Assembly: GCA_028821265.1 (NCBI GenBank)
Contig: JAPPGU010000041.1
Location: forward strand, 1-47,951
Source of the DNA: a bacterium
Lineage (GTDB): Bacteria > Actinomycetota > Acidimicrobiia > Spongiisociales > Spongiisociaceae
Direction: 5' to 3'
Length of the DNA stretch: 47,951 bases
The position numbers and the translations under genes were made by a program. Below are positions 44,386-47,951 of this stretch, piece by piece; within the stretch, counting starts at the first letter, position 1; every line of letters begins with the position of its first letter. The notes under the pieces are model-generated. The model ran no database searches. It saw only the letters and a program-made list of their open reading frames with translations, and was not told the origin of the DNA.

Positions 44386-45255
44386 GTGAACCTTCACCTG
44401 CTGGATGCCACCTACGAGCTGTTCCGGGCCTACTTCGGGTATCCGAGGCGGGCCGCTCCTGACGGGATGGAGGTGGGCGCCGTCTACGGGGTGCTCGACT
44501 CCACGATCCGCCTGCTCCGCGAGGACGGGGTCACCCATCTGGCCGCCGCCACCGACGCGGTCATCGAGTCCTTCCGCAACGACATCTTCCCGGGCTACAA
44601 GACGGGCGAGGGAATCGAGCCGGAGTTGCTGGCCCAGTTCCGGCTGGCGGAGGAGGCGCTGGAGGTACTGGGCGTGACCGTCTGGGCCATGCGGGACTTC
44701 GAGGCCGACGACGCCATCGCCACGGCCGCCCACCGCTGGATGGACGATGTGGAGCGGGTGGTCATCCTCAGCCCCGACAAGGACCTCATGCAGTGCGTGA
44801 TCGGGGATCGGGTGGTGACGTTCAACCGCCGGGAACGCAAGCGTTATGACGAGCGCGGGGTGGTGGAGAAGTTCGGCGTCCGTCCCGGCTCCATACCCGA
44901 TTACCTGGCGCTGGTGGGTGACGCCGCCGACCGGGTTCCCGGGATTCCCGGCTGGGGCGCGAAGTCCAGTTCCACCCTCCTGGCCAGGTACGGCCACATC
45001 GAGGACATCCCGGGATCGCCCGGCGGCTGGGACGTGAAGGTCCGGGGCGCCGCCCGGCTGTCCGCCAACCTGGAAGCCGCCCGGCCCGAGGCTGCCCTCT
45101 ACCGGACGCTCACCACCCTCCGCCGTGACGTGCCGCTGGCCGAGGACCTGGACGATCTTGAATGGCGCGGCGCCAACCGATCACGTTTCTTCGAGCTGTG
45201 CGACCGGCTCGGTTTCGGCGCCATCCGCACCCGGCCCGGCCGCTGGCGGAGCTAG
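44386..45255 (+). CDS. 5'-3' exonuclease (FEN/PolI N-domain family)
   Basis: This 289-residue protein starts at GTG 44386, with no clear ribosome site and a possible leaderless start. The N-domain (HLLDATYELFRAYFGYPRRA, FRNDIFPGYKTGEGIEPELL, DFEADDAIATAA, ILSPDKDLMQCV) carries the metal-binding acidic residues. The H3TH motif is LVGDAADRVPGIPGWGAKSS. It should remove 5' flaps or RNA primers, using two metal ions. It is a stand-alone version of the PolI N-terminal domain. Confidence 0.88.
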   Translation: MNLHLLDATYELFRAYFGYPRRAAPDGMEVGAVYGVLDSTIRLLREDGVTHLAAATDAVIESFRNDIFPGYKTGEGIEPELLAQFRLAEEALEVLGVTVWAMRDFEADDAIATAAHRWMDDVERVVILSPDKDLMQCVIGDRVVTFNRRERKRYDERGVVEKFGVRPGSIPDYLALVGDAADRVPGIPGWGAKSSSTLLARYGHIEDIPGSPGGWDVKVRGAARLSANLEAARPEAALYRTLTTLRRDVPLAEDLDDLEWRGANRSRFFELCDRLGFGAIRTRPGRWRS

Positions 45256-45301
45256 CCACCGACCACCGCGCCCCTCCACCGACCACCGGGTCCCGAGGTC
45301 T

Positions 45302-45330
45302 TTGACATCCGTCACTTCGTATGGTCTAAT
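45302..45330 (+). promoter_or_regulatory. consensus promoter of the riboswitch leader
   Basis: TTGACA (45302-45307), a 17-bp spacer and TCTAAT (45325-45330) form a near-perfect sigma-70-type promoter, the best in the window. Transcription would start near 45337, just before the riboswitch. Confidence 0.8.
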
Positions 45331-45345
45331 TCTGCCGTTACAACG

Positions 45346-45428
45346 CGCTCATCCAGAGCGGTGGAGGGACAGGCCCTTTGAAGCCGCGGCAACCGACATG
45401 AGCGGTGCCAATGCCTGATCGATGAGAC
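45346..45428 (+). ncRNA. SAM riboswitch (SAM-I type)
   Basis: The closing stem P1 is CTCATC (45348-45353) with GATGAG (45421-45426). Between them are the conserved blocks AGCGGTGGAGGGACAGGCCC, TTTGAAGCCGCGGCAACCGA and GCGGTGCCAATGCCTGATC, in the order and spacing of the S-box aptamer. It binds S-adenosylmethionine and usually turns downstream genes off when SAM is plentiful. An expression platform is not obvious directly after P1. Instead a leader peptide and attenuator-like hairpins follow. Confidence 0.88.
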
Positions 45429-45494
45429 TGCCGAGGCGGGATTCCGCTCGCGGCGCTCAGACGAGCGCGTACAAGCGAGAGGAGACTGTCACAC

Positions 45495-45593
45495 ATGGAT
45501 TGCCTGCACTTCAAGCCTCCAGCATCGAGCAGGTGCATGTGTTGTCCAGGCTCCCGGGTGATCCACCCGGGCGGTCCTGGCAACCGCCCGTAA
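45495..45593 (+). CDS. Cys-rich leader peptide
   Basis: ATG 45495, behind AGAGGAGA, opens a 32-codon frame. It begins MDCLHFKPPASSRCMCCPGS and ends in HPGGPGNRP at TAA 45591-45593. Four Cys codons, three of them in CMCC (45534-45545), would stall ribosomes when charged tRNA-Cys is short. The last two Cys codons end four bases before the first arm of the alternative hairpins. Actinobacterial Cys-attenuation leaders of this style are known; this one sits behind a SAM riboswitch. Confidence 0.6.
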   Translation: MDCLHFKPPASSRCMCCPGSRVIHPGGPGNRP

Positions 45594-45615
45594 CCGACGC
45601 CACCACCCGGGAGCC
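45549..45615 (+). promoter_or_regulatory. mutually exclusive attenuator-like hairpins
   Basis: GGCTCCCGGGTG (45549-45560) can pair with the adjacent ACCCGGG (45564-45570) as a short stem. It can also pair with CACCCGGGAGCC (45604-45615) as a perfect 12-bp stem. The first arm lies inside the leader frame right after the Cys codons, so ribosome position would decide which stem forms. The distal stem lies 146 bp before the OsmC gene. Confidence 0.55.
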
Positions 45616-45760
45616 AACAGGCACGACCGGCCACGCGTCCTCGACTCCGGACCTGTGATCGACGATCCAGGATCAACAGGGACGGACCAGACCCGAGCTT
45701 GGGTACAGAACGCAAGCAACCAACCCGTATCCACGGGAAACACGAAGGAGAAGAACAAAA

Positions 45761-46315
45761 ATGAGCACTGGTGACATCAACGGAGTCGATACGGCTCACC
45801 TGTTGTTCGCGCGGGGAGTGGTCGGCGACACCCCGGCCGCCGGCGACTACACCTGGAGGGCCTCGAACGAGTGGGTCCACGGAACCCACAGCAAGACGAA
45901 GATCGATGGCTACTTCGGCCTGGGCGAGGAGCGCAGCCACAAGGGGAACTACGAGTTCGAGGCCGACCATCCGCTGGAGTTCAACGCGGCGGACAATGCC
46001 GCCACTCCGGTGGAGATCGTGCTGGCGGGCCTGGCGAGCTGCCTGACGGCGGGTGTGGCCGCGGTGGCCGAGAACCGCGAGATCAAGCTCCGCTCGGTGA
46101 AGGCCACGCTCGAGGCCGACATGAACATCGGGGGCATCCTCGGATCCGACCCCGATGTCAGGAACGGATTCAACGACGTCCGGGTCAACTACGAGATCGA
46201 CGCCGACGACACGAGCGAGGCCGATCTCGAGGCGCTGGTGGCGCAGTCCCAGAAGATCTCGGCGGTCTTCGACATCATGACCAATCCCACCAACGTGACC
46301 GTAAGCGTCGGCTGA
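45761..46315 (+). CDS. OsmC-family protein
   Basis: This 184-residue protein starts at ATG 45761 behind GAAGGAG. The OsmC fold is recognisable from ADHPLEFNAADNAATPVEIV, LAGLASCLTAGVAAVAENRE and the C-terminal SQKISAVFDIMTNPTNVTVS. Classical OsmC/Ohr hydroperoxidases use two Cys. Here the first is present (ASCLTAG) but the second is missing, so thiol peroxidase chemistry is unlikely. The SAM riboswitch and Cys-rich leader upstream point to a role in sulfur metabolism. The next gene starts 23 bp later. Confidence 0.82.
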   Translation: MSTGDINGVDTAHLLFARGVVGDTPAAGDYTWRASNEWVHGTHSKTKIDGYFGLGEERSHKGNYEFEADHPLEFNAADNAATPVEIVLAGLASCLTAGVAAVAENREIKLRSVKATLEADMNIGGILGSDPDVRNGFNDVRVNYEIDADDTSEADLEALVAQSQKISAVFDIMTNPTNVTVSVG

Positions 46316-46338
46316 GACGTCCGATCCGGAGTCATCGG

Positions 46339-47592
46339 ATGCGTACCACCACCGTCGTCATCGGAGCCGGGCACAGCGGCTTGGCGGCGAGCTACTTCCT
46401 GTCTGCTCGAGGCATCGACCATGTGGTCCTGGAGCGGGGTGAGGTGGCCAACACCTGGCGGACCGAACGCTGGGACTCGCTGCGGCTGCTGACCCCCAAC
46501 TGGCAGGTCAGCCTGCCCGGCTTCGCTTACGACGGTGACGATCCGGACGGCTTCATGACCGTGACGGAGTTGGTGGGCGTCATCGCCCGGTACGCCCGGT
46601 TGGTGAACCCACCTCTCCAGACGCGCACCACCGTCACCTCGGTCCGCCCGGACGGTGACGGTTACGAGGTGGTGACCGACCGCGGCGTGTGGCGGTGCCG
46701 GTCGGTGATCCTGGCCAGCGGGGGCTTCAACCTGCCCAAGGTGCCCCCCATCGCGGCCGCCCTCCCCGACTCGGTTCGTTCCGTCACCCCGCACGAGTAC
46801 CGCCGCCCCTCCGATATCGAAGATGGAGGGGTGCTGGTGGTGGGGGTGTCCGCCACCGGCATCCAGCTCGCCGAGGAGATCCATCGATCCGGGCGTCCGG
46901 TCACCGTGTCCGTGGGCGAGCACGTCCGCATGCCCAGGATCTACCGAGGTCGCGACATCCGGTACTGGATGGACGTGACCGGCGTCTCGGACGAGCGCTA
47001 CGACGAGGCGGACGATGTCCACCGCGCCCGCCAGGTTCCCTCGCCCCAGCTGGTCGGATCCCCGGAGCGCAAGTCGCTCGATCTCAATGCCCTGACCGAC
47101 CAGGGGGTTCGGATGGTGGGCCGCCTGGCCGGGATCAGGGGCGGTAAGGCCCAGCTGTCGGGATCCCTCCACAACAAGGTCACCCGCTCCGACCTCAAGA
47201 TGAACCGCCTGCTGACCACCATCGACGAGTGGGTCACCGAGAACGGGTTGGACGGCCGGTACGATCCGCCGCATCGATTCGAGCGCACCCGGCTGGAGGA
47301 TTCCCCGCCGCTGCTGATCGATCTGGACGGGGAGAACATCCGCACCGTGCTGTGGGCGACCGGGTACCGCCCCGACTACTCGTGGCTCCACGTTCCGGTG
47401 CTGGACTACAAGGGCCGGATCCGCCACGACGGCGGCGTGGTGACCGAATCCCCGGGCCTGTACGTGATCGGGTTGAACTTCCTGCGCCGTCGCAAGTCCA
47501 GCTTCATCCACGGCGCCGAGGACGACGCCAGCGACCTGGTCGAACACCTGGCCGCGTATCTGGACGCCCGGGTGCCGGTGGGAGTCGGCTGA
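46339..47592 (+). CDS. FAD-dependent monooxygenase/oxidoreductase
   Basis: This 417-residue protein has FAD-binding TVVIGAGHSGLAASYFLSAR at 5-24. The FMO/BVMO-type WRTERWDSLRLLTPNW follows, then a second dinucleotide motif VLVVGVSATGIQLAEEIHRS, and ATGYRPDYSWLHVP before the end. It belongs to the flavin monooxygenase-like group also containing proteins that oxidise sulfur or nitrogen compounds. Co-transcription with OsmC under the sulfur-responsive leader suggests an organosulfur substrate, which is inference. Confidence 0.82.
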   Translation: MRTTTVVIGAGHSGLAASYFLSARGIDHVVLERGEVANTWRTERWDSLRLLTPNWQVSLPGFAYDGDDPDGFMTVTELVGVIARYARLVNPPLQTRTTVTSVRPDGDGYEVVTDRGVWRCRSVILASGGFNLPKVPPIAAALPDSVRSVTPHEYRRPSDIEDGGVLVVGVSATGIQLAEEIHRSGRPVTVSVGEHVRMPRIYRGRDIRYWMDVTGVSDERYDEADDVHRARQVPSPQLVGSPERKSLDLNALTDQGVRMVGRLAGIRGGKAQLSGSLHNKVTRSDLKMNRLLTTIDEWVTENGLDGRYDPPHRFERTRLEDSPPLLIDLDGENIRTVLWATGYRPDYSWLHVPVLDYKGRIRHDGGVVTESPGLYVIGLNFLRRRKSSFIHGAEDDASDLVEHLAAYLDARVPVGVG

Positions 47593-47638
47593 CCGATCGC
47601 CGCCGCCGGCGGCAGGACGCGAGCGAGGAGGTAGGCGG

Positions 47639-47951
47639 ATGGGTTACGAGCCCGGAACCCCGATCGTGATCACCGAGGCGGAAGGGGTGGGCCTGACCAC
47701 TCCCGAACCGTTCGTGCGCCATGTGAAGGCGTTGCTGTCCCCCTTGCTCCAGCCGGGCATCGGGGACTTCGCTATAGGCACCTGCGAGGTACCGCCGGGC
47801 CAGAAGGGGAGCCTGCACACGCATGCGGACGCCGCCGAGATCTGGATGTTTTCCGAGGGCCTGGGCCGGGCCACGGTGGGCGACCTGGAGATCGAGACCG
47901 GTCCCGGCACCGTCGTCTTCACGCCTCCCGGAGTCAGCCACCAGTTCTTCA
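47639..47951 (+). CDS. cupin-domain protein (partial, runs off window)
   Basis: It starts at ATG 47639 behind GAGGAGGT. The 104 visible residues include the cupin motif SLHTHADAAEIWMFSEG, with His-x-His and Glu metal ligands, and the second motif PGTVVFTPPGVSHQFF. Small cupins of this type include thiol and organosulfur dioxygenases as well as binding proteins. It lies 47 bp behind the flavoprotein gene and probably belongs to the same operon. The 3' end is outside the window. Confidence 0.8.
   Translation, partial: MGYEPGTPIVITEAEGVGLTTPEPFVRHVKALLSPLLQPGIGDFAIGTCEVPPGQKGSLHTHADAAEIWMFSEGLGRATVGDLEIETGPGTVVFTPPGVSHQFF

Follow-up and report, generated by a model that had tools for sequence, protein, structure and literature searches.

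Introduction

Classical attenuators, among them the trp attenuator, combine control codons in a short leader peptide with competing RNA stems, and leaders that take two inputs have precedents in the Clostridium ubiG operon, where an S-box stands with a cysteine T-box, and in the Salmonella mgtA leader. Here we analyse the 5' untranslated region (UTR) of an OsmC-family gene in a draft genome of the class Acidimicrobiia (family Spongiisociaceae; GenBank assembly GCA_028821265.1; 2.6 Mb in 87 contigs), where a SAM-I (S-box) riboswitch, named for S-adenosylmethionine (SAM), is followed by a short open reading frame (ORF) with Cys and Met codons and by a long-range RNA stem. The stretch analysed, hereafter the window, is the whole of contig JAPPGU010000041.1 (our contig C16; 47,951 nucleotides (nt)), and all features given below lie on its forward strand. 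We propose, with a probability of roughly two in three, that this region is a two-stage sulfur sensor within one 5' UTR, in which the SAM-I riboswitch would gate translation of a Met/Cys leader attenuator.

Several described systems share parts of this arrangement. The polycysteine ORFs of mycobacteria are likewise Cys-rich short ORFs 5' of sulfur genes in actinobacteria (PMC13236596; earlier predictions in PMC1262725 and PMC4633059); they are described as leaderless and reported to act by translation attenuation (PMC13236596), and the available excerpt of PMC1262725 reports no conserved hairpins able to serve as terminators in the mycobacterial cys leaders. What sets the present leader apart from them is a Shine-Dalgarno sequence, often an upstream riboswitch, the occurrence of Met as an alternative at the control codon and a long-range stem that covaries. 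The metL leader of Streptomyces lividans, MSTTSDRTPATEATTTPGARCMCRRMCAF, shares the alternating Cys and Met codons in front of methionine genes (metNIQ), but it is leaderless, has several hairpins and no typical terminator, and the excerpt of its description mentions no riboswitch (PMC8079986). A riboswitch is joined to a translated short upstream ORF (uORF) in the Mbox-controlled uORF of Mycobacterium tuberculosis, which involves Rho (PMC12810186), and in B12 riboswitch-uORF pairs (PMC11260477); these respond to other ligands, and no amino-acid control codons are described in the excerpted parts of either source. A SAM-II switch with two start codons is also on record, with no amino-acid leader described in the excerpt of that report (PMC9373788). 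Like classical attenuators such as ilvB1 (PMC13236596), the present element has candidate control codons and stems predicted to compete according to where the ribosome stands, whereas here two amino acids of one pathway appear to serve as alternative control codons and a riboswitch precedes many copies. The aptamer itself is that of the SAM-I/S-box family (RF00162); in distinction from the usual SAM-I arrangement, its platform ends where the Shine-Dalgarno sequence of a short leader begins, and what appears to be a second switch, driven by the ribosome, comes next.

Results

Codon content of the leader peptide

Downstream of the aptamer, a Shine-Dalgarno sequence (AGGAG, 45480-45484) precedes an ORF of 32 codons that runs from ATG 45495 to TAA 45593 and encodes the peptide MDCLHFKPPASSRCMCCPGSRVIHPGGPGNRP, whose codons 14-17 form a Cys box, CMCC. 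Since the predicted transcript start lies about 155-160 nt 5' of this ATG and AGGAG is present, the window's leader is predicted not to be leaderless, unlike the mycobacterial attenuators. The comparison set comprised 89 leader instances, which were reduced to 60 by removal of identical copies; L146 was excluded because the search pattern had missed its 3' arm. Most copies of the peptide end in [CM]-x-x-S-R-V, and it is the residue at position -3 before the Ser of this Ser-Arg-Val (SRV) motif, or its equivalent, that we regard as the control position. This residue was Cys in 39 of the 60 copies and Met in 21, and in the window it is encoded by UGU at 45543-45545. When the copies were clustered at 75% identity the pattern was retained, with Cys or Met in 33 of 33 clusters (UGU in 20, AUG in 13). 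Every one of the 39 Cys codons at -3 was UGU and none was UGC; among Cys codons elsewhere, UGU made up 29 of 182 in the aligned portions of the structural genes and 0 of 12 in six window ORFs. As UGC is frequent at other positions of the box (13 of 31 at -4 and 17 of 24 at -6), the UGU rule is confined to -3. Either rare-codon tuning or an RNA constraint not recognised so far might account for the invariant UGU.

Cys and Met together made up 39% of the nine-residue box before SRV (198 of 504 residues in 56 distinct boxes), compared with 7.7% upstream and 2.9% after SRV, the corresponding values in the other frames being 14% and 1.8%. The leader is, in other words, a short ORF with frame-specific enrichment in pathway amino-acid codons, which is the mark of an attenuator leader. 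As 21 of the 60 copies have AUG at the control position, the leader probably reads methionine as well as cysteine. Within the genus of the host, CMCC was kept in eight of nine distinct copies (YMCC in L052), while codon 3 was Cys in five, Arg in three and Tyr in one. The sequence-only reading from which this work started had described a 32-codon leader with four Cys codons; the ORF is borne out, although conservation of Cys is restricted to the CMCC group. The 32-residue peptide had no NCBIfam match up to an E value of 1, and nothing above chance was found in Rfam for the leader and stem element, the only hit within 45430-45770 being a sub-threshold microRNA match.

A SAM-I aptamer with a candidate platform at the leader start

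The Rfam scan of the whole window gave a single match, SAM-I at 45346-45428, which covered the full RF00162 model and scored 68.3 bits (cut-off 44.4; E 6e-14). This covariance search confirms the S-box aptamer that had been read by eye. A T-box was rejected, RF00162 being the only Rfam family above cut-off in the window. Rare SAM-I variants bind spermidine instead of SAM, according to the excerpt of PMC10853860.

In the expression platform, the 5' strand of P1, ACGCGCUC (45343-45350), can form a candidate anti-P1 helix with GAGCGCGU (45463-45470), 8 of 8 bases being complementary. The same pairing was significant against shuffled platforms (p<0.05) in 25 of 38 SAM-I copies, and in L085 its sequence is altered yet pairing is retained. 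The partner GAGCGCGU lies within a competing hairpin, CUCGC/GCGAG (45447-45451/45475-45479) around GCGCUC/GAGCGC, which closes directly 5' of the leader Shine-Dalgarno sequence. Counterparts were recognised by eye, with no statistic attached, as UGUCG/CGACA in L005 and CUCAC/GUGAG in L102. Five MetY loci of group f6 that have no anti-P1 platform have, by eye, a likely leader start only about 11-14 nt past the aptamer. Together, the platform and these short-distance MetY loci point to leader translation as the probable target of SAM.

Upstream of the aptamer, a -35 box TTGACA (45302-45307), a 17-nt spacer and a -10 box TCTAAT (45325-45330) can be read directly from the sequence, as had been claimed, and constitute a near-consensus promoter. 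Of the 38 SAM-I copies, 36 have a TTGAC box at a distance of 35-54 nt on the 5' side of the aptamer (the first two matches per locus were used; L073 and L092 lack it). The promoter scan returned zero entries within 45240-45780 because its -10 rule excludes TCTAAT, and is hence uninformative on any second promoter. The upstream neighbour (44386-45255) encodes a 5'-3' exonuclease-like protein (PF02739/PF01367) and ends about 45 nt before the promoter.

A covarying long-range stem and its competitors

Two arms, A (45551-45561) and F (45603-45613), form a long-range stem across the end of the leader ORF; its 12-bp core in the window, 45549-45560/45604-45615, is complementary at 12 of 12 positions. 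In the alignment of 33 copies, 95% of A:F cells were paired and both sides had changed in 6 of 11 pairs, as exemplified by the variants CTCTTGAGCGG/CCGCTCAAGAG and CTCCCCGGTG/CACCGGGGAG. Cells changed on both sides numbered 25, compared with 7.5 +/- 2.8 in shuffles, and pairing dropped to 31-51% when one arm was slid along the other. The innermost pair fails in 16 of the 33 copies. The arms of the first 40 copies were chosen by hand rather than by a blind program. Compensatory change in this stem, for which the sequence-only reading had called, is thus present across the 33 copies.

Three further structures can compete with or accompany A:F. Arm A has a partner B (45564-45571; 8 of 8 bases complementary to 45553-45560), which by eye is not present in every relative, and an inner hairpin C:D (45568-45575/45583-45590; overall 45568-45590) lies at the end of the leader ORF. 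Furthermore, an arm E, with the sequence ACGCC or a variant of it, is separated from F by a single base, which is A in 50 of the 60 copies, and can pair with an arm G located 3' of F. In the window this candidate third stem is GACGC (45596-45600) with GCGUC (45635-45639), which encloses arm F; in relatives the pattern is ACGCC...GGCGU. Measured against shuffled versions of the downstream sequence, 17 of 34 distinct E arms did better than 95% or more of them (mean 82%), and a foreign arm was beaten in 65% of comparisons. Strong E:G stems of differing sequence occur in L071, L095, L152, L159 and L134. E:G as a universal stem was rejected, being supported for only 17 of the 34 distinct arms. The arm order A-E-F-G would also allow an H-type pseudoknot, which is outside the scope of the folding programs. 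The earlier idea of two mutually exclusive hairpins survives as regards candidate competing structures, but in many relatives the rival of the 12-bp stem is this third stem downstream, which is weak in the window's own genus. Comparison across relatives supports the aptamer, the codon box and the A:F stem, and it supports E:G in half of the distinct arms.

An intrinsic terminator was sought after A:F and none was seen, as no U-tract follows this stem; in this the element departs from classical attenuators, and U-rich sequence was found, by eye, only after E:G in a few relatives. The terminator scan gave one terminator-like site, at 45522-45536 inside the leader, which is within chance.

Predicted effect of ribosome position

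Codon -3 starts 8 nt before arm A. With this codon in the A site, a ribosome of the usual footprint would reach several bases into arm A. In most copies the stop codon lies directly before arm E. Its distance to arm F, which is 11 nt long, is 12 nt in 32 of the 60 copies and falls between 8 and 13 nt in 53 of them; six other copies have 19-29 nt, and in L153 the stop codon lies 60 nt beyond F. Folding was therefore repeated with a 28-nt ribosome mask at codon -3 or at the stop codon, A:F being counted at six or more pairs and E:G at four or more. A:F was predicted in 47 of 60 copies when free, in 4 with the ribosome at -3 and in 34 with the ribosome at the stop codon, whereas the corresponding numbers for E:G were 12, 28 and 2. 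In the window, A:F formed with 10 pairs in both the free and the stop state.

In five copies lacking SAM-I (L142, L143, L145, L148 and L184), the predicted openness of the gene's start region rose from 0.2-0.3 to about 0.5 on stalling, and there the element may be a translational attenuator. By eye, the leader segment GTCATGTG of these copies could pair with the start region of OsmC, CACATGAC, and perhaps this complementarity accounts for the predicted opening.

Distribution across genomes

Among 59 genomes of relatives, 45 had RF00162 matches, 44 of them above cut-off, at 78 places (76 above cut-off). The leader element, defined as a short ORF with Cys/Met codons beside a CTCYCGGGTG-like arm and a downstream complement, was found at 40 of these places. 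It was not found in the downstream sequence read at the other 38, which include two matches that score below the cut-off of Rfam. Several of these 38 places have an ORF of about 3.5 kb behind the aptamer, whose size suggests metH. At L081 and L107, SAM-I stands before an OsmC173-like gene and a different short ORF ending THRCPMS occupies the leader position, with no A:F stem seen; this is perhaps a second leader type. The host genome itself carries a second SAM-I and leader (ACSCSRV; G000:C51:93224-93306, L005) before a single-Cys OsmC of 173 amino acids (aa). L185 (VXRE01000003.1, titled Acidimicrobiia) has the same element as G007:C20 of the window's genus.

A covariance model of box and stem, R1, was built from 33 of the 40 copies, which consequently match by construction. 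Within the order, R1 gave matches at 65 places, spread over 50 of 138 genomes, and it missed two known copies, L071 and L173. In samples of 395 genomes of the class and 396 of the phylum, searched at eight scored candidates per genome and with fast filters that may lose weak copies, no genome outside the order was matched; the 50 matches in the class sample all belong to the own order or closer, and both matches in the phylum sample are of the order. R1 places outside the copy set were G022:C92, G050:C126, G113:C14 and G117:C41, and by coordinates G069:C107 equals L184 and G135:C172 equals L178. An exact pattern scan of named genomes gave 30 stretches labelled Acidimicrobiia, Acidimicrobiaceae, Actinobacteria/Actinomycetes/Actinomycetota or simply 'bacterium', together with two labelled Acidobacteria; of these two, L184 coincides in position with G069, a genome of the same order, and L173 is unplaced. 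Twelve of 23 further loci have the leader without SAM-I, namely 10 of 20 R1 loci and, of three named loci, L173 and L184 (L178 has SAM-I), the lack being less certain for L148, where only 112 bases lie upstream of the match. The element is broader than the single window: in this order of the Acidimicrobiia it is a probable Met/Cys leader attenuator placed on sulfur genes, and in many copies SAM-I precedes it.

Genes behind the element

In the window the element is followed by genes for an OsmC-family protein of 184 aa (45761-46315; PF02566, 65.5 bits), an FAD-dependent monooxygenase-like oxidoreductase of 417 aa (46339-47592; PF13738, Pyr_redox_3) and a cupin (47639-47951; PF07883, Cupin_2, 38.8 bits). 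The contig stops at base 47951 inside the cupin gene, and the end of the operon therefore lies beyond the window. The flavoprotein is closest to TIGR04046 (340.7 bits, below the cut-off of 498), followed by ArsO, also below cut-off, and its Protein Data Bank (PDB) matches are flavin monooxygenases and a pyridine nucleotide-disulfide oxidoreductase, with E values down to 3e-21. The OsmC protein resembles PDB 2opl, a hypothetical protein. It had been noted that this protein lacks its second Cys, and the relatives agree: the residue that we take to be the first catalytic Cys is kept, and what is presumably the site of the second reads SAV (SAVFD) in 17 of 17 OsmC184 copies and SPV in at least 27 OsmC173 copies. 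The window protein thus does not have both catalytic Cys residues of the two-Cys OsmC/Ohr peroxidases.

Four gene arrangements were recognised by tblastn with reference proteins. OsmC184 is followed by the flavoprotein, with the cupin next in eight same-genus copies; OsmC173 stands alone, as in the second copy of the window genome; OsmC173 is followed by MetY and a CoA-binding protein, with MetX in addition in L148 and L149; or MetY is followed by MetX. MetY (homocysteine synthase), MetX and the SsuA-family sulfonate-binding protein of L073 are above NCBIfam cut-offs, and the CoA-binding protein and the permease behind SsuA are above Pfam cut-offs. Behind the L173 element lie a mercaptopyruvate sulfurtransferase-like protein, a second ORF and a cysteine synthase-rhodanese-like protein, all below curated NCBIfam cut-offs; the first ORF of L159 had no family match. 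OsmC173 recurs as the first gene before MetY and the CoA-binding protein (L062, L067, L085, L102, L142-L144, L148, L149 and L151), an arrangement that suggests a part for it in homocysteine synthesis by direct sulfhydrylation.

The control codon was associated with the gene behind it. AUG at -3 was present in 11 of 16 MetY clusters and in 0 of 13 others (Fisher p 1.3e-4; 4 of the 33 clusters were dropped for too little downstream sequence or no named gene, and L153 was counted as MetY at 36% identity). All 17 OsmC184 copies have Cys at -3, which points to the supply of cysteine as the signal for the unit in the window. The sequence-only reading had stressed that the genes of the window are not standard methionine or cysteine synthesis genes. 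Although the OsmC/flavoprotein/cupin set is indeed present, other copies precede MetY, MetX, SsuA-family and cysteine synthase-like genes, so that the set is less exotic than it had seemed; because the element stands before all of these, the unit looks like one branch of a sulfur-assimilation regulon. The organosulfur scavenging or detoxification route suggested in that reading would be one conceivable role of the set.

Discussion

The arrangement of these parts is consistent with a device in two stages. When SAM is bound, P1 would form and the downstream hairpin would close against the leader Shine-Dalgarno sequence; when SAM is absent, the 5' strand of P1 would pair with its partner at 45463-45470 and open the Shine-Dalgarno region. 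Judging from this complementarity, SAM would thereby gate translation of the leader. In the second stage, a ribosome waiting at codon -3 for Cys-tRNA (in the window) or Met-tRNA (in relatives) would cover part of arm A, so that the full A:F stem could not form and E:G, in many relatives, or local hairpins would form instead. A ribosome that reached the stop codon would cover E and leave arm A free to pair with F. If A:F is taken as the OFF state, the genes would be expressed at low SAM combined with a shortage of sulfur amino acids. Because no U-tract terminator follows A:F, the output would be Rho-dependent termination or translation control. SAM gating, the ON/OFF polarity and the output step are what we infer. 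The two-input sulfur gate of the sequence-only reading keeps its candidate inputs, SAM-I and a Cys-rich leader in series, but the cysteine-only version has been changed to one in which methionine is read too.

A number of observations weigh against this two-stage sensor. The anti-P1 helix is non-significant in 13 of the 38 copies, and further A:F pair types, one of five measures, show no excess (11 versus 10.4 in shuffles). In the window, E:G has only 5 bp and beats 76% of shuffles, which is within the shuffled range, and the same-genus loci L050 and L045 are without the stem. The window's stalled fold has neither A:F nor E:G, and the masks impose part of the folding result. The Shine-Dalgarno sequence of the window's OsmC gene is open in all three states (0.82, 0.87 and 0.90), and stalling opens the gene start region by more than 0.1 in only 16 of 53 loci, while closing it by more than 0.1 in one; occlusion of this site as a general output was accordingly set aside, as it is not predicted for the window. 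The copies share ancestry, and the association between codon and gene was noticed before it was tested. Finally, U-rich sequence follows E:G in some relatives (L154 and L060); there E:G would act as a terminator, and the polarity would be the opposite.

This last point leads to a reading in which E:G is a terminator and A:F an antiterminator, so that Met/Cys starvation would shut the genes off and expression would occur only when SAM is poor but Cys and Met are replete, possibly in order to keep sulfide for cysteine. The U-rich tracts of L154 and L060, seen less clearly in L056, L155 and L156, and the longest E:G stems (L071 and L095), which replace A:F in the free fold, agree with it. We nevertheless regard such a reversal as improbable, since by eye the other listed copies have no U-tract after G, the genes are of sulfur-assimilation families in which shortage should induce, and the dominance of A:F in the free fold would mean that high SAM turned the genes on if SAM blocks leader translation. 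It is somewhat easier to imagine, though still unlikely, that the two devices work independently, SAM-I switching a terminator or a Shine-Dalgarno sequence in the ordinary way, and the leader being a separate Cys/Met attenuator with no SAM gating. Each does occur without the other, the leader in 12 of 23 further loci and SAM-I at 38 of 78 places, but independence leaves aside the P1/anti-P1 pairing beside the leader Shine-Dalgarno sequence, significant in 25 of 38 copies, and the five f6 MetY loci without a platform in which the likely leader start is so close to the aptamer.

Readings in which the ribosome does not report on charged tRNA appear far less probable. Conservation of the [CM]-x-x-S-R-V end in most copies could reflect an arrest peptide that senses a sulfur compound via the exit tunnel, which we think very unlikely: arm A encodes SRV, so that base pairing can explain the conservation, where the stem differs SRV differs too (L068 and L084 have SQV, L067 and L085 S-stop), and both the interchange of Cys and Met at -3 and the constant use of the rarer UGU for Cys fit codon reading. 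Hardly any weight, and marginally less than that, goes to a conserved RNA structure or small-protein gene with no part in sulfur amino-acid sensing, given the frame-specific Cys/Met enrichment, the fact that Cys and Met replace each other at one fixed position, and the sulfur genes that follow the element. We consequently retain the two-stage sensor as the preferred reading.

Among the matches listed in the open-licence literature, none described a Met/Cys leader arranged in series with a SAM riboswitch. The parts are of known kinds, and their combination and the interchangeable control codon appear to be new within the literature searched. On balance we lean, by a small degree, towards a new attenuator class of this Acidimicrobiia order, in which Met and Cys would be interchangeable at one fixed control codon (rare UGU or AUG), the codon being exchanged to match the product of the operon, and which, often gated by SAM-I, would form an RNA logic gate for two levels of one pathway. 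The exchange of Cys and Met at a single codon, with Cys always as the rarer UGU, would allow a direct test of control-codon evolution and of codon speed. The element also connects sulfur metabolism with an FMO-like flavoprotein and with OsmC proteins that have a single Cys, and their function thus becomes testable.

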